A stretch of 64,000 bases of DNA. It comes from Rufibacter radiotolerans. GTDB lineage: Bacteria > Bacteroidota > Bacteroidia > Cytophagales > Hymenobacteraceae. The position numbers were made by a program, and so were the translations under genes. This document shows positions 30,234 to 36,310 of the stretch, in pieces. The number at the start of each line of letters is the position of its first letter. Position 1 is the first letter of the stretch. Under the pieces are notes generated by a model that searched no databases, was not told where the DNA came from, and saw only the letters and a program-made list of their open reading frames with translations. The stretch spans positions 2,068,408 to 2,132,407 of the forward strand of contig NZ_CP010777.1 of NCBI RefSeq assembly GCF_001078055.1. Direction: 5' to 3'.

Positions 30234-31240
30234 CTGGTACGGGAAAGTTTAAGCGGTAAAACAAAAACCAGTCCCAGCAGGCTGGGCAAGGCAATGTTCA
30301 AGGCCCACAAAGAAAGGCTGGCGCCCAGCACCAATAGCGGGTCCTGCCCCATCATCCCAAAAAAGTGCATGGCAGAAAGCTCGCGCATGCCAATATCGGC
30401 CAGGGCATTAATGGAGGGCACCGCCGATTTTAACAGGAAGGTACCAGCCACGCCCCAGGCATATTCCTGCACCGAGAGCCGCACCCCAAAGGCCCACAAC
30501 AGCAACCCAAACTGGGCCATGAAAACCAGATACCGTACCCCGGAAATCCAGAGCACTTTCCTGAGCTCAGGCCCTGAATACTGGCCTACCACCGCAAAGT
30601 AGTGCACCCAGCGCCGCAGCACCGGGATCTTCTCCAGGAAATTAATGGCCCCCTGAAAGCTAAACAGCAAGGCCAGCGCCCACCCGTTCAAAAACAGCAG
30701 ACCCAAGGCCACAGACACCCCTACCGGTGAAGCCAGGGGCACGTAGAATTTAAACACGAAATAGGCGATGGCCCCAGACCCCGCCAACACGGTGGCATAT
30801 AGCTGGCAAAGGCGGCCCAGCAGGATGGCACCAATGGCGTCGGTACGGTTGTCTTTGTGGAGGGTTAAAATGCGACCGGCGTAGTCCCCTACCCGATTAG
30901 GGGTCACAAACCCCAGGGTGAGGCCCACCAGCACCGCCCGGTAGGCTTCCAGGAAAGAGATCTTTTCTATTTTCTGGGAAAGGTATTGCCATTTGGCGGC
31001 CTCTACCCCCCAGTTTACCGGCAACAGCGCCGCGGCAACCAAAATGGCTCCCCAACTGCTGTGCCATACCTGTTGCAAGGTATCTCCGGAAAAAGCGCTA
31101 TTGGTCCTGGCCTCTGAAATGGCGTGAAACAGGTAATACAGGGTTAAAGCAAAGACCGACAGCTTCCCAAGCCAGCCCAAAAACCGACGGGATACCAGCA
31201 GATTGCCAGATTGTTTGTATTTTTGCACCTCATGATTCAT
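30230..31240 (-). CDS. LPG synthase TM-region-like membrane protein
   Basis: 336 residues, about eight hydrophobic helices; SAWGAILVAAALLPVNWGVE-like region, LTLGFVTPNRVGDYAGRILT and SVPSINALADIGMRELSAMH are the conserved blocks of the lysylphosphatidylglycerol synthase transmembrane family (UPF0104 type). Family members flip or aminoacylate lipids; this one lacks the soluble aminoacyl-transferase domain, so a lipid or glycan flippase role is more likely (inference). Its 5' end overlaps the start of ruvC on the other strand by 9 bases. Confidence 0.87.
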   Translation of the reverse strand: MNHEVQKYKQSGNLLVSRRFLGWLGKLSVFALTLYYLFHAISEARTNSAFSGDTLQQVWHSSWGAILVAAALLPVNWGVEAAKWQYLSQKIEKISFLEAYRAVLVGLTLGFVTPNRVGDYAGRILTLHKDNRTDAIGAILLGRLCQLYATVLAGSGAIAYFVFKFYVPLASPVGVSVALGLLFLNGWALALLFSFQGAINFLEKIPVLRRWVHYFAVVGQYSGPELRKVLWISGVRYLVFMAQFGLLLWAFGVRLSVQEYAWGVAGTFLLKSAVPSINALADIGMRELSAMHFFGMMGQDPLLVLGASLSLWALNIALPSLLGLVFVLPLKLSRTR

Positions 31241-31804
31241 TCTACCCCAGTTCTTCCCAATAATAAGTTAATCTTAGGCATTGACCCCGGCACCAACGTC
31301 ATGGGCTACGGCCTCATTGAGGTGAACGGATCTAAGATTACCGTGCTCCAATACGGCGTGCTGCAACTGAAAAGCTATGCCAACCACGCCATTAAACTAA
31401 AAAAGATCTTTGACGCCACCCTTCGGCTCATCACTGAATACCTTCCGGATGAACTAGCCATTGAGGCACCTTTCTACGGCACCAACGTGCAGTCCATGCT
31501 CAAGTTGGGCCGCGCGCAGGGCGTAGCCATTGCCGCCGCCCTGTCCCGTGACATCCCGTATGTGGAATATGCCCCAAAGAAAGTAAAACAATCTGTGACC
31601 GGCAACGGGAACGCCTCTAAAGAGCAGGTAGCCTCCATGCTGCTCCAGATCCTGAAAATCAAAGAAGCCCCCAAATTCCTGGATGCCACAGATGCTCTGG
31701 CCGTGGCCCTATGCCACCACTACCAGCAGGGTAACAACCAGAAAGCCGGCGGTAAATCCTGGAAAGCCTTCCTCACAGAGAATCCAGACCGGATGTCCAA
31801 GTAG
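31232..31804 (+). CDS. ruvC: Holliday junction resolvase RuvC
   Basis: 190 residues from ATG 31232. LILGIDPGTNVMGYGLIEV carries the first catalytic Asp, AIEAPFYGTNVQSMLKLGRA the Glu, and DATDALAVALCHHY the closing Asp pair. RuvC cleaves four-way junctions with RuvAB. The upstream in-frame codons are in the 5' end of the opposing gene, so the two genes start head to head and overlap by 9 bases. A TATTTTTG box (31218-31225) just 6 bases before the ATG hints at a very short or absent leader. Ends in a convergent gap with an elaborate palindrome. Confidence 0.96.
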   Translation: MIHSTPVLPNNKLILGIDPGTNVMGYGLIEVNGSKITVLQYGVLQLKSYANHAIKLKKIFDATLRLITEYLPDELAIEAPFYGTNVQSMLKLGRAQGVAIAAALSRDIPYVEYAPKKVKQSVTGNGNASKEQVASMLLQILKIKEAPKFLDATDALAVALCHHYQQGNNQKAGGKSWKAFLTENPDRMSK

Positions 31805-31962
31805 TTGCTAGTGATTAGTTTTTAGTGGTAAGTTTTTTATAAAGTAGTTCGGTCCGTTTTGGGCCTGTTTTCAGGAAAACAGGCCCAAAACGGACCGAAC
31901 TACTTTTACTGGTGTTAATAAACCCTCCATGTTTTGTGGGCTAGCAACTAAAAACTAATCAC
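31804..31962. repeat. nested inverted repeats around palindrome copy 8
   Basis: An outer 16-bp repeat (GTGATTAGTTTTTAGT at 31811-31826; complement at 31947-31962) encloses palindrome copy 8. GTTGCTAG at 31804-31811 also has its complement at 31941-31948. It fills nearly the whole ruvC/HIT gap. Confidence 0.85.
31841..31906. repeat. GTTTT-palindrome family, copy 8 (31-bp perfect arms)
   Basis: Arms 31841-31871 and 31876-31906 are exact complements with a CAGG loop, the longest in the window. The family core is extended outward by AAAGTAGTTCGGTCC and its complement. Confidence 0.97.
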
Positions 31963-31968
31963 CAACAA

Positions 31969-32361
31969 CTAAAAGGCCTGTCTGATCTTCTCCGCTATCT
32001 CCTCCATTTCAGAAGCCTCTAGCTTTAGTTTAGGGTGACTGAAATTCATGTCAGACATTTGGTTCATGGGCACCAGGTGAATGTGGGCGTGTGGCACTTC
32101 CAGGCCAATGACAGCCACTCCTATTCGCACGCAGGGTACGACTTTCTTAACCGCCACAGCCACTTTCTGGGCAAACTTATGCAAATCACCCAGGGTGTCT
32201 GGGTCCAGGTCAAATATGTAATCTACCGGCTCTTTAGGAATAACCAGCGTATGGCCTTTCACCATGGGGAACACATCTAAAAAAGCAAGGAAACGATCAT
32301 CTTCCAGCACTTTGTAGGCTGGAATCTCGCCGCTGATTATTTTTGAGAAGATGGTGGCCAT
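31969..32361 (-). CDS. HIT-family nucleotide hydrolase/transferase
   Basis: 130 residues. The HIT active-site motif reads PHAHIHLVP; the N-terminal IFSKIISGEIPAYKVLED is typical of the Hint/protein kinase C inhibitor branch. Such proteins hydrolyse AMP-linked nucleotides (for example adenosine phosphoramidates). It follows greA by 11 bases on the same strand and is likely cotranscribed. Metal-binding N-terminal CxxC found in some members is absent. Confidence 0.95.
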   Translation of the reverse strand: MATIFSKIISGEIPAYKVLEDDRFLAFLDVFPMVKGHTLVIPKEPVDYIFDLDPDTLGDLHKFAQKVAVAVKKVVPCVRIGVAVIGLEVPHAHIHLVPMNQMSDMNFSHPKLKLEASEMEEIAEKIRQAF

Positions 32362-32372
32362 GGCAGAGCGGA

Positions 32373-32846
32373 TTAACGGCTGATGTCAAGGATTTCAAAA
32401 CGGAGTTTACCGGCCGGAACCGTGATCTCCGCTATCTCCCCTACTGATTTCCCCAGCAAGCCTTTGCCGATGGGTGATTTCACGGAGATTTTGCCCGCGC
32501 CCAGGTTGGCCTCTTCCTCGGCTACCAGGGTATACACCATTTCCATGTTGTTGTTCAGGTTCTTCAGCTTGACCTTTGAGAGAATAAGGGCCTTGGAAAG
32601 GTCCATGTTGGTCTCATCTATCAGGCGGGCATTGCCCAGCACTTCCTCCAGTTTAGATATCTTCAGTTCCAAGTGGCCTTGGGCATCCTTGGCCGCATCA
32701 TATTCCGCGTTCTCGCTTAGATCGCCTTTGTCACGGGCCTCAGCCAGTTGGTGGGCAACCGCAGAGCGACCTTTGGTTTTAAGTTCATGTAACTCTTCCT
32801 TCAGTTTCTGTAATCCCTCCGGAGTGTAATAAGATACTGTTGCCAT
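32373..32846 (-). CDS. greA: transcription elongation factor GreA
   Basis: 157 residues. The N-terminal coiled coil (GLQKLKEELHELKTKGRSAV ... DLSENAEYDAAKDAQGHLEL) carries the acidic tip residues D and E of the DLSENAEYDAAK loop that stimulate transcript cleavage by backtracked RNA polymerase. The C-terminal FKBP-like domain ends SVGEIAEITVPAGKLRFEIL. A strong hairpin plus U-tract lies 27 bases before the ATG on the coding strand, so the gene may be controlled by attenuation. HIT gene downstream. Confidence 0.96.
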   Translation of the reverse strand: MATVSYYTPEGLQKLKEELHELKTKGRSAVAHQLAEARDKGDLSENAEYDAAKDAQGHLELKISKLEEVLGNARLIDETNMDLSKALILSKVKLKNLNNNMEMVYTLVAEEEANLGAGKISVKSPIGKGLLGKSVGEIAEITVPAGKLRFEILDISR

Positions 32847-32872
32847 ATCTGTAATGGGTTAGTACAATGTTT

Positions 32873-32912
32873 AAAAAAAAGAAGAACGGCCTTCCGCTTG
32901 GAGACCGTTCTT
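32873..32912 (-). terminator. terminator-like hairpin in the greA leader
   Basis: On the minus strand AAGAACGG and CCGTTCTT pair, with further pairing inside (GGTCTCC with GGAAGGCC), followed by CTTTTTTTT. It ends 27 bases upstream of the greA ATG and no minus-strand gene precedes it, so it is an attenuator candidate rather than an ordinary gene end. Confidence 0.75.
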
Positions 32913-33029
32913 ATGCTAAGGTACTATATTTTTCTGAACTATAAGCAAATCAGGCAATATTTTGAGTGCCGTTTGCTACCCTTTTAGCCGGTTGCCAAAA
33001 GTTGGCGGTTGCTGTTTCCTTTTGGTCTA

Positions 33030-33057
33030 TTTTACGCCTGTTTTCTGAAAAACAAGT
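33030..33057. repeat. GTTTT-palindrome family, copy 9 (right arm eroded)
   Basis: TTTTACGCCTGTTTT is recognisable; the right arm has decayed after AAAACA. In the divergent greA/Ppx gap. Confidence 0.6.
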
Positions 33058-33090
33058 AAGAAATACCCTTCTTTTTTCAGCGGGGGTATG

Positions 33091-33098
33091 TACTTTTG
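33091..33098 (+). promoter_or_regulatory. probable -7 element for the Ppx/GppA gene
   Basis: TACTTTTG matches TAnnTTTG 22 bases before the ATG at 33121. The -33 region is TTC-like rather than TTG. It supports the ATG over the in-frame TTG at 33106. Confidence 0.5.
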
Positions 33099-33120
33099 AT
33101 GGTACTTGTCACTCTTGTGT

Positions 33121-34047
33121 ATGTCATCATCAACAGAGCCCCTTATTAGATTAGCTGCCATTGACATTGGGTCCAACGCCGTACGTTGCCAGATTTCCAA
33201 TGTGTTCAAATTTGAGGACCATATTCTCTTTAAGCGGGTAGAATACATACGCTACCCTATGCGCCTGGGCGAAGACGTTTTTGCCTCAGGGGTTATCTCC
33301 AAGGCCAAAACCGAGAAGTTCATAAAGCTACTGCACGCCCTGCACCTGCTCATGGAGGTACATGAAGTGCATGACTACATGATCTGCGCCACCTCTGCCA
33401 TGCGCTCGGCCACCAACGCCCATGAGATTCTGCATGAGGTACAGAAGAAATTGGGCCTGCACATACAGGTAATTGACGGCACCACCGAGGCAGATCTTAT
33501 AAACCTGGTCATACGGCAGCAGCTAGACGACAAAAATTACCTACACATAGACGTGGGCGGCGGTAGCACCGAGTTCAACATCTATGTGAACCGCATGAAA
33601 GTGGCTTCCCAGTCCTTTGAGCAGGGTTCCATCCGGCACATGCAGGGCGAAGATTCCATGGAGATCTGGCACGCCATGCAGGCCTGGGTCACCGAAAATG
33701 CCAAACTGCACCACGTCTCCCGGGCCATTGGTACCGGAGGCAATATCAACAAGATCTATGACATGGCCCGCAAGGCCGGGGGCAAGCCTATCTTCCGGAA
33801 ACAGATTGAGGAAGTAGTGGAACATATCTCCAGCCTCACCATGGAAGAACGCGTAAAGGTGCTCCTGCTCAACGCCGACCGCGCCGATGTGATCGTGCCT
33901 GCCGCCGAGATCTACCTTTCGGCCATGAAGTGGGCACACCTGGAAAGCATGCTGGTGCCCCAGGTGGGATTGAAAGACGGAATTCTGCAGTCCTTGTATG
34001 AACGCCACCAGGGAGCCACCCATCATCACTTCAAGCTTGACTTTTAA
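33121..34047 (+). CDS. Ppx/GppA exopolyphosphatase family protein
   Basis: 308 residues from ATG 33121 (MSSSTEPLIRLAAIDIGSNA). The actin-fold phosphate loop is AAIDIGSNAVRCQI, a second is HIDVGGGSTEFNIYV with the DGGGS-like catalytic segment, and GTGGNINKIYDMA is the third conserved block. Family members cleave polyphosphate or (p)ppGpp from the terminal phosphate. Short relative to E. coli Ppx (513) because it lacks the C-terminal domain, as in many single-domain GppA-like proteins. It converges on ppk1, the polyphosphate-making enzyme, which supports an exopolyphosphatase role. Confidence 0.9.
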   Translation: MSSSTEPLIRLAAIDIGSNAVRCQISNVFKFEDHILFKRVEYIRYPMRLGEDVFASGVISKAKTEKFIKLLHALHLLMEVHEVHDYMICATSAMRSATNAHEILHEVQKKLGLHIQVIDGTTEADLINLVIRQQLDDKNYLHIDVGGGSTEFNIYVNRMKVASQSFEQGSIRHMQGEDSMEIWHAMQAWVTENAKLHHVSRAIGTGGNINKIYDMARKAGGKPIFRKQIEEVVEHISSLTMEERVKVLLLNADRADVIVPAAEIYLSAMKWAHLESMLVPQVGLKDGILQSLYERHQGATHHHFKLDF

Positions 34048-34080
34048 CAATTCTCCCTTTGTGAGTCAAATTTTTCCTTA

Positions 34081-34133
34081 AAGCAGAATCCCCTTCCTTC
34101 TCTTGTTCAAAGAGAAAGAAGGGGATTCTGCTT
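34081..34133. terminator. long hairpin between Ppx/GppA and ppk1
   Basis: AAGCAGAATCCCCTTC pairs with its complement and continues imperfectly to TCTCT/AGAGA around TTCAA. The G/C block is followed by CTTTAA on plus and preceded by TTCCTTAAAG, so it could stop transcripts in both directions in this convergent gap. Confidence 0.7.
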
Positions 34134-34165
34134 TAAGGCCGTTTTCTGGAAAACAGGCTTAAAAC
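34131..34165. repeat. GTTTT-palindrome family, copy 10
   Basis: CTTTAAGGCCGTTTT opposite AAAACAGGCTTAAAAC, imperfect; its left edge merges with the long hairpin just before it. Confidence 0.75.
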
Positions 34166-34207
34166 GGTTTCAACTGATTGCTAAGTATTCCAGTATTTAA
34201 TTTTTTT

Positions 34208-36310
34208 CTAAAACAGACAGGCGTCTTCGGTCATCTCAGAAGTGAGGTGGTAGAACTCGCGGTGCATGTTGAAAGGGGCTTCGCCCTCGGTGGGTTGGCG
34301 CTTGATGTAGGAGCCGTCCTCGCGCATAATGTAGCAGTTCTGGTTGTCCATGAGGTTGTAGCGCAGGATGTGGATGGCCTGGCGTTTCAGGTCCTCGTGC
34401 ACAATGTAGAAAAGGGCCTCAATGCGGCGCTCAAAGCTGCGCACCATAATATCGGCGGAGCCGCCCAGTACCAGCGGATCGCCGTTGTTATGGAAATAGA
34501 AAATGCGGGCGTGCTCCAGGTACTCGCCCACAATAGAACTCACCTGAATGTTCTCGCTCAGCCCTTCGCGCCCCGGGCGAAGGCAGCAGATACCCCGCAC
34601 AATCAACTTGATCTTCACCCCCGCCTGTGAGGCCGTGTAAAACTCGTCCATCACTTCCTTGTCTTCCAGGGAGTTGATCTTGATGACAATACCGGCGGGT
34701 AGGCCCATTTCGGCGTTATGCGTTTCCTGCCTGATAAGTTTGATCAGCTGCTGCCGCATGTCTTTGGGCGCCGTGATCAGGTACTCATAGCTCTCAGGGT
34801 ACGAATGGCCGGTGATTACGTTAAAGAACTCAGACACGTCATGGGCATAGACATCATCTGTAGTCAAAAGGCTGATGTCTGTGTACATGCGGCTGGTCTG
34901 CTCATTGTAGTTTCCGGAGCCGATGTGCACGTAACGCGTTACCTTTTCGCCCTCCTTCCGGATGATCATCATCATCTTGGTGTGGGTCTTGTACTTACTG
35001 ATGCCGTAGATCACAAAGCAGCCGGCTTTCTCAAGCCGCTCCCCTTCTTTGATGTTGCGTTCCTCGTCAAAGCGGGCCTTCACCTCAAAAAGCGCCGACA
35101 CGTGCTTTCCGTTCTCAGCCGCCTTTAAAAGGGCAGCAGTGATTCTGGAATTATCTGCTAAGCGGTAAATGGTCTGTTTGATCCCTAGCACATACGGGTC
35201 CTCGGCGGCCTTCTCCAGCAGCGTCACTACCGGGTCCATGCTGTTATAGGGGTGGTGCAGAAGCACGTCATGCTCTTTGAGGTACTCAAAGATATTGTCA
35301 ATGGCCCCGGCCGGCAGGCTGGGCGAGGGCACCGGCGTCATGGGCCGCTGCACCTTGTTGGCAAAATGCGGGTGCTTGATAATCTGCCACAGGCCTTTCA
35401 GGTCCAGGAGGCGGTCAATGGAGAAAACGTTGCTGTTATCAATGACCCAACGCTCTTTGAGCACTTTCATCATGTAAGACGAGGGCGCGCGTTCCACCTC
35501 CATGCGCACTACCCTGCCCTTTTTGCGGGTTTTCAGCTTCTGCTTTACCTCCTGCACAAAGTCCTGGTCCATATCATCACTTTCCTCCAGCGTGAAATCG
35601 CCGTTACGCGTGATCCTGAAAAGGTTCACAGAGTCTATCTCCACGTTACGGAACAGCTTGGGCATATTCCACCGGATGATGTCCTCAATGGGCACGAAAA
35701 TGATCTTGTTCTTGCGTGATATCTCAAAAAAGCGGGTAAGGTTCCCCGGTATCTGCACAAAAGTGATGCGGCTCTGCTGCTTGGTCTCTTCTGTGGTGCG
35801 GGTGACCACACCAAAGATGAGCAGCTGGTTCATCATGAGCGGGAAGCCGTGGTAACTGTCATACACCATAGGCGTAAGCAGCGGGTACACGGTGTTCCGG
35901 AAATAGAAATCGGCTTTAGCCTGCTCGTTCTCCGTGAGGTCCTCTACCCTGCAGATGTTGAAACCCTGGTTTTCAAATTCACGGCGCAAATCATCATAGG
36001 CCTGGCACTGGTCGGCCACAAAGCGGTGGGCCAGGTCCATGAGCTTCTTGCGGAACGGTTGTTCCCGAAGCCCCGAATAATCAATGCGCTCTTTGCCGTA
36101 ATCTATGTAATTGTACAAGCTACCAACCCTGATCATGAAGAACTCATCAAGGTTAGAGGCGGTAATGGCCAGGAATTTCAGGCGCTCAAAAATAGGAGTC
36201 TCTGGGTTGCGGGCCAGGTCCAGCACCCGGTAATTGAACCTAAGCCAGCTCAGGTCTCTACTGATATAATTACTTTTCCGGATTTGCTCCGATGCTTTGA
36301 TTGCACTCAT
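34208..36310 (-). CDS. ppk1: polyphosphate kinase 1
   Basis: 700 residues, normal for PPK1. The N-terminal domain is RDLSWLRFNYRVLDLARNPE with ASNLDEFFMIRVG. The phospholipase-D-like catalytic domains show HHPYNSMDPV, YKTHTKMMMIIR (phosphorylated His segment), HIGSGNYNEQTSRMYTDISL and EHARIFYFHNNGD (second His). It makes polyphosphate from ATP and reversibly regenerates ATP. Convergent with the Ppx/GppA-type phosphatase gene, giving a synthesis/degradation pair separated by 160 bases of hairpins. Confidence 0.97.
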   Translation of the reverse strand: MSAIKASEQIRKSNYISRDLSWLRFNYRVLDLARNPETPIFERLKFLAITASNLDEFFMIRVGSLYNYIDYGKERIDYSGLREQPFRKKLMDLAHRFVADQCQAYDDLRREFENQGFNICRVEDLTENEQAKADFYFRNTVYPLLTPMVYDSYHGFPLMMNQLLIFGVVTRTTEETKQQSRITFVQIPGNLTRFFEISRKNKIIFVPIEDIIRWNMPKLFRNVEIDSVNLFRITRNGDFTLEESDDMDQDFVQEVKQKLKTRKKGRVVRMEVERAPSSYMMKVLKERWVIDNSNVFSIDRLLDLKGLWQIIKHPHFANKVQRPMTPVPSPSLPAGAIDNIFEYLKEHDVLLHHPYNSMDPVVTLLEKAAEDPYVLGIKQTIYRLADNSRITAALLKAAENGKHVSALFEVKARFDEERNIKEGERLEKAGCFVIYGISKYKTHTKMMMIIRKEGEKVTRYVHIGSGNYNEQTSRMYTDISLLTTDDVYAHDVSEFFNVITGHSYPESYEYLITAPKDMRQQLIKLIRQETHNAEMGLPAGIVIKINSLEDKEVMDEFYTASQAGVKIKLIVRGICCLRPGREGLSENIQVSSIVGEYLEHARIFYFHNNGDPLVLGGSADIMVRSFERRIEALFYIVHEDLKRQAIHILRYNLMDNQNCYIMREDGSYIKRQPTEGEAPFNMHREFYHLTSEMTEDACLF

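Follow-up and report, generated by a model that had tools for sequence, protein, structure and literature searches.

What does a strong stem-loop followed by a run of T residues do in the leader of greA, the elongation-factor gene of Rufibacter radiotolerans? The hairpin was studied in a window of 64,000 nucleotides (nt) of this genome (contig NZ_CP010777.1, positions 2,068,408 to 2,132,407 of the forward strand), the window being the whole stretch of DNA analysed, and in the greA leaders of other Bacteroidota. Most probably the element is an intrinsic terminator lying directly behind the greA promoter, with the effect of attenuating the gene. An earlier note on this DNA had placed a stem with an eight-T tract ahead of greA; both are there, although the gap to the ATG is 26 nt and not 27. 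The features at the core of the question are as follows.

32882-32912, minus strand: putative terminator stem-loop AAGAACGGTCTCC-AAGC-GGAAGGCCGTTCTT, 31 nt, 13 pairs with one bulge, -17.6 kcal/mol, conserved and covarying.
32873-32880, minus strand: run of eight T, from the sequence, separated from the stem by a single C (32881).
32847-32872, minus strand: remainder of the leader from the T tract to the ATG, 26 nt, from the sequence.
32373-32846, minus strand, ATG at 32846: greA, 157 amino acids, Pfam PF03449 GreA_GreB_N (E = 1e-26).

Read on the minus strand from 32912 to 32873, the element is AAGAACGGTCTCCAAGCGGAAGGCCGTTCTT-C-TTTTTTTT. It has what is required of an intrinsic terminator at the sequence level, namely a stable, G+C-containing hairpin with a T-rich tract directly behind it. 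A 50-mer containing the hairpin folds at -18.1 kcal/mol (z = -4.8), a stability equalled by none of 200 shuffles, while its opposite strand folds less stably (-14.3 kcal/mol, z = -2.9). The fingertip D and E residues of GreA, matching D41 and E44 of the Escherichia coli protein, are present in the encoded product. As had been claimed, no plausible gene lies ahead of the hairpin on the greA strand. The next long open reading frame (ORF) 5' of greA (33106-34047), presumably coding for a Ppx/GppA-type protein to judge from its sequence, is divergent. A mechanical call of 73 amino acids at 33027-33248, in greA orientation, shares sequence with this gene and was not accepted as one. A stock terminator scan lists at greA only an overlapping stem of five pairs (32885-32898) and finds 28 terminator-like sites over the region against 24.5 in shuffles. 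As this is about the shuffled rate, that scan is no proof by itself; the hairpin is proven by the comparative evidence.

The greA gene is present in all 59 genomes of one sample and all 296 of another, both including that of R. radiotolerans. An ATG start could be placed in 251 of the 268 greA loci fetched, the fingertip acids D and E being encoded in all 251, and 248 distinct leaders of 150 nt were counted. A loose scan, which picks up the established terminator in the E. coli greA leader GraL (-18.6 kcal/mol), detected a hairpin of at least -8 kcal/mol in stability in 182 of 209 leaders, in contrast to 23 of 209 on the opposite strand and 174 of 2090 shuffles. Its score proved too lenient on control leaders (gyrB, 9/28 at -8 and 0/28 at -15 kcal/mol; ppk, 4/20 and 2/20, respectively; 28 of 30 gyrB and 20 of 30 ppk loci were usable), and a strict scan was therefore adopted. 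This demands at least six basal pairs, at least 80% pairing outside the loop, a loop of at most 8 nt, a stem-loop of at most 46 nt, five T among the eight bases behind the stem and a position within 100 nt of the ATG. The T tract is thus a requirement of the scans, so that its conservation has no independent measure, and stems of great length escape them. By the strict scan, hairpin and T tract occur in 207 of the 248 distinct leaders, while the opposite strand gives 28 of 248, gyrB one of 28 leaders and ppk two of 20. Fisher p values for this conservation assume that relatives are independent and are too small.

The hairpin was retained in close relatives, where its absence would by the earlier note have counted against it, and across the phylum. 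All 37 distinct leaders from the family of the window pass the strict scan, as do 141 of 170 leaders with a family label, representing 38 of 50 families; in eight of the 12 families without a pass, a hairpin with a T tract is visible by eye. Among named relatives (Pontibacter, Hymenobacter, Flavobacterium, Dyadobacter, Pedobacter and others), of which Pontibacter and Hymenobacter are nearest to the window, 66 of 78 distinct leaders from 80 loci pass. Sixteen loci with a GTG or TTG start, together with L088, fall outside the 248, and L361 and L362 were unused. The GTG and TTG leaders were placed later, and 12 of the 14 distinct ones pass the strict scan, two of them weakly (L260 and L131). Thirteen loci of family f34 (within L250-L270, two of them repeats) have no ATG near the expected greA start, where GTG or TTG fits.

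Within the R. radiotolerans genome, the level expected by chance was gauged from the longest ATG ORFs in 464 kb, which are crude gene calls. In the loose scan, two of 88 divergent-gene leaders are as stable as -15 kcal/mol, one of them greA. The strict scan is passed by seven of the 88, including greA and its divergent neighbour, and by 17 of 142 co-directional leaders, many of which probably carry the 3' terminator of the preceding gene. Origin from a repeat family was rejected: the pattern GAACGGT..CCGTTC occurs eight times in the genome with a T tract only behind the greA copy, and a control pattern is equally frequent (10). A 37-nt motif, GAACGGTAA...TACT(G/T)CCGTTC, occurs at six sites of the genome (G000:C1 967888, 1049445, 2608727, 3426732, 4018723 and 4276686), which are probably coding, with no T tract behind it.

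While hairpin, T tract and position persist, the stem sequence varies by family. The arms read GAACGG/CCGTTC in the family of the window, AAATCCCG/GGGATTT in Flavobacterium, and GCCACTG/CGGTGGC and AAGTCAGC/GCTGACTT in more distant stems. In an alignment of 48 hairpins from the order of the window, Cytophagales, chosen for ACGG and CCGT in their arms, 96.2% of cells are paired, and both sides of a pair have changed in 67 cells against a shuffle mean of 26, a count matched by none of 500 shuffles. Two of the five covariation measures (pairs with both-side change and further pair types) are no higher than in shuffles. The four central pairs, forming the core ACGG/CCGT, are invariant in these 48 hairpins, which is partly forced by the choice of sequences. 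In 153 stems picked blind to wobble pairing, G-T pairs number 67 and A-C pairs 10, where composition leads one to expect about 1:1; the p value of 6e-11 holds if stems are independent, which related hairpins are not (seven of the 67 are one pair shared in the genus of the window). Since G-T pairs exceed A-C pairs and bases covary, selection on this in silico evidence acts on the RNA of the greA strand.

The placement of the hairpin relative to the promoter was considered next to the TAnnTTTG consensus given for Bacteroidota sigma-A promoters (PMC7366714, PMC9723704), which lies at -12 to -5 in Flavobacterium psychrophilum (PMC9723704). All promoter and start positions given here are predictions.

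32916-32923, minus strand: -7 promoter box TACCTTAG, TAnnTTTG with one mismatch.
32911 (+/- 1-2), minus strand: predicted first nucleotide of the greA mRNA, from the position of the box by the rule of PMC9723704.
32946-32949, minus strand: TTTG at about -35 to -38, possibly the -33 element but a weak match, from sequence only.

The predicted +1 accordingly falls within the first two bases of the hairpin. In each of the 16 leaders of the genus, that of the window included, TACCTTAGCA is found at a constant spacing to the hairpin, and the stem has a T tract behind it. The interval between T tract and ATG contains ATTGTACTAACCCAT (32854-32868), which is near-identical in most leaders of the genus and not outside it. 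Among the 207 leaders with a strict hairpin, 119 have an exact TAnnTTTG within 40 nt upstream of it, as against four with one between hairpin and ATG. A start site 3' of the hairpin, which the earlier note had named as the finding that would count against it, is on this in silico evidence unlikely. The RNA ahead of the stem is predicted to be at most 5 nt in 78 of the 119 exact-box leaders, some box-to-stem distances being negative where the stem as scanned runs on into the box. A box with one mismatch occurs in 161 of the 189 leaders of the loose set and is a weak signal on its own, because 94 of 189 control windows farther upstream also match.

These observations would fit the following course of events. 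RNA polymerase would start at about 32911 and the nascent RNA would fold into the hairpin from its first nucleotides, before any ribosome could start. At the U tract many complexes would let go of an RNA of about 39 nt that is little more than the stem-loop, and greA mRNA would come only from those that read through. Termination at the hairpin in the cell is very probable to judge from its form and conservation, and the cell probably throttles GreA by cutting short many transcripts right at their start. With hardly any RNA predicted ahead of the stem, an antiterminator, an aptamer with a ligand pocket or a leader peptide has no room. With no sensing RNA upstream, read-through would have to depend on the polymerase, in its current state and with the factors bound to it, or on nucleotide supply. 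We consider it rather likely that read-through is regulated and not fixed. The likeliest sensor would be GreA, raising termination when abundant as at GraL in E. coli, and whether GreA itself is the regulator is, on this analogy, close to an even call. Feedback by GreA in Bacteroidota is plausible on the strength of E. coli, a distant relative. It is a more tentative proposal that a terminator beginning at about nucleotide one reports GreA activity through the polymerase alone, with no antiterminator, aptamer, leader peptide or upstream RNA.

The precedent for such feedback is the E. coli greA leader. GraL terminates about two thirds of E. coli greA transcripts; without GreA it drops about fourfold, whereas with GreA read-through drops. 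The D41A mutant of GreA does not repress, D41 being needed, and overproduced Nus factors have no substantial effect on GraL (PMC6829880). The suggestion in the earlier note that GreA rescues paused or backtracked polymerase at a terminator in its own leader needs care as to sign, since E. coli GreA raises GraL termination and lowers read-through (PMC6829880) instead of helping polymerase past the terminator. The two leaders share an intrinsic terminator near the greA promoter and RNAs of similar length (37-59 nt in E. coli, where termination is imprecise, PMC6829880; about 39 nt predicted here). They differ in the RNA ahead of the stem (about 18-19 nt for GraL, about 0 nt in the window from the predicted start) and in the distance from stem end to ATG (102 nt versus 35 nt), and the hairpins have no sequence likeness, judged by eye.

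Several points weigh against an attenuating terminator under such control. The terminator call in Bacteroidota is a prediction from sequence. Control of GraL by GreA is known from E. coli only, is seen in vivo and not in vitro, and for its full extent needs 18 nt ahead of the hairpin (PMC6829880), which are absent here if the predicted start is correct. The strict scan is failed by 41 of the 248 leaders, and four families (f16, f51, f55 and f62) have no clear hairpin even by eye. An exact promoter box is lacking in 88 of the 207 strict-hairpin leaders, the box of the window itself deviates from consensus at one base (TTAG for TTTG), and 41 of the 119 exact-box leaders have 7-28 nt ahead of the stem.

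The alternative that survives best is a terminator of fixed strength, which would stop a constant share of transcripts and hold GreA at a low, even level without any sensing. That no sensing structure fits ahead of the stem in the window and that the stem sequence is free to change between families both suit this explanation. It is nevertheless unlikely: E. coli GraL is regulated (PMC6829880), and the ACGG/CCGT core is constant amid covarying pairs, albeit in the 48 hairpins picked for that core. Moreover, a weaker promoter would suffice for a fixed output, and the retention of a terminator throughout the phylum suggests regulation.

Protective stem-loops act at mRNA 5' ends, and the predicted 5' end is where the hairpin lies. 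It might thus shield the greA mRNA from decay, the U-rich stretch serving as a ribosome landing site and no termination taking place. We regard this as quite improbable, as protection needs no T tract, yet a tract directly behind the stem, the signature of a terminator, accompanies stems that change; a counterpoint is that T richness is known only from scans that require it.

Less probable still is a separate small RNA gene with its own terminator and a distinct greA promoter behind it. The released RNA would indeed be a short RNA, and GraL acts in trans (PMC6829880), its trans target nudE encoding a nudix hydrolase (PMC6829880). Such an RNA would, however, be scarcely more than a terminator, and the promoter behind it is represented by an exact TAnnTTTG in only the four of 207 leaders mentioned above, boxes of alternative sigma factors not having been searched. 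Finally, a DNA palindrome serving as a repressor operator at +1, although in keeping with an inverted repeat at the start site and a core invariant in the order, is scarcely credible and was rejected on the count of G-T and A-C pairs, wobble favouring the greA-strand RNA by 67 to 10 as is unexpected for a DNA site, while loop and bulge break the symmetry and the T tract is one-sided.

Attenuation of greA in its leader is already known from E. coli and other groups. Attenuators were reported in greA leaders of Proteobacteria, bacilli and Clostridia by Naville and Gautheret (2010, PMC2965389), who ranked greA/rnk seventh among gene families often under attenuation and reported rnk leaders also. 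The element in the window resembles theirs in being a 5' terminator in greA orientation near the start codon, and, as in their definition, it lies within 300 nt of the start and at a shorter distance from greA than from the gene upstream (PMC2965389). It differs in that the window has no room for an upstream antiterminator, a difference which depends on the predicted start and for which no antiterminator search was run. The main text of PMC2965389 contains no word beginning Bacteroid, Cytophag or Flavobact, its species table being in the supplement. In F. psychrophilum, 64 structured 5' regions with mapped starts have been described (PMC9723704); the main text of that paper does not mention greA, which may be in its Table S7. 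The main texts of the Bacteroides thetaiotaomicron start maps (PMC7366714, PMC10994844) do not treat greA, nor is it mentioned in the available text of PMC8040213, PMC7247131, PMC2864571, PMC7815308 and PMC6296669. Among the matches listed from the open-access literature, taken without supplements, no Bacteroidota greA attenuator was found in print. What is new, as far as searched, is a form that is spread across the Bacteroidota and in many leaders has next to no RNA before the stem. Shared ancestry of the greA attenuators, followed by turnover of their sequences, is no less possible than the convergence proposed earlier.

Downstream, a further gene may share the fate of greA.

31969-32361, minus strand: HIT-family ORF, from the ORF call, 11 nt 3' of greA.

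This ORF, which we take to belong to the HIT family from its HxHxH motif, is probably co-transcribed with greA and would then probably be attenuated too. Of 157 loci (not deduplicated) that extend 450 nt or more beyond the 3' end of greA, 134 show a HIT motif in this flank, mostly within 180 nt, and the attenuator may therefore control a conserved greA-HIT pair.

Neither scan finds a hairpin in the 200 nt ahead of the two GreA-like paralogues of the genome, L359 and L360. By eye, however, a perfect hairpin of 56 nt, which is longer than the scans allow (L359:468-523, about 4280267-4280322 of the contig; 26 pairs, -51.5 kcal/mol, T-rich tail TTCTTCTTTT), lies 134 nt before the ATG of L359. A co-directional open frame ends about 35 nt ahead of this hairpin, which may be the 3' terminator of that frame or a leader attenuator. 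A layout similar to that of the greA leader occurs in the leader of the minus-strand ORF L245:1655-4072, where tagtatctttc is followed by the perfect hairpin AAGCCCGATGCCCACCGCATCGGGCTT and a T tract, 21 nt before the ATG. Long near-perfect palindromes are present at 31850-31897 and 34075-34139, both with sub-threshold Rfam microRNA matches; the matches, near 31841 and 34078, concern these palindromes and not the greA leader. The former palindrome resembles others with a GTTTT..AAAAC core in other stretches of the genome.

An Rfam search over the greA leader (window positions 31000-35000) gave no match there at E values up to 1, the presence of GraL in Rfam not having been checked, and a search of 20 distant loci (E up to 0.05) gave no greA-leader match, only tRNAs and one mascRNA match on a tRNA. 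What is conserved is the place of the terminator and not its sequence, and the Rfam searches made did not pick it up. In practice, promoter fusions to Bacteroidota greA should take in the leader up to the ATG. GraL control, working in the cell and dependent on the residue with which GreA promotes cleavage, does not fall readily under either attenuators or riboswitches (PMC6829880), and the greA leaders of Bacteroidota, in which the device is stripped to a near-bare terminator, represent natural variants for testing what it requires. If a terminator at the very start of the transcript does report on GreA by way of the polymerase only, the change of its stem sequence while its place stays fixed would mean that the signal lies in position and in pausing at the U tract, and not in RNA sequence; the stem-loop, once released, may also act in trans.
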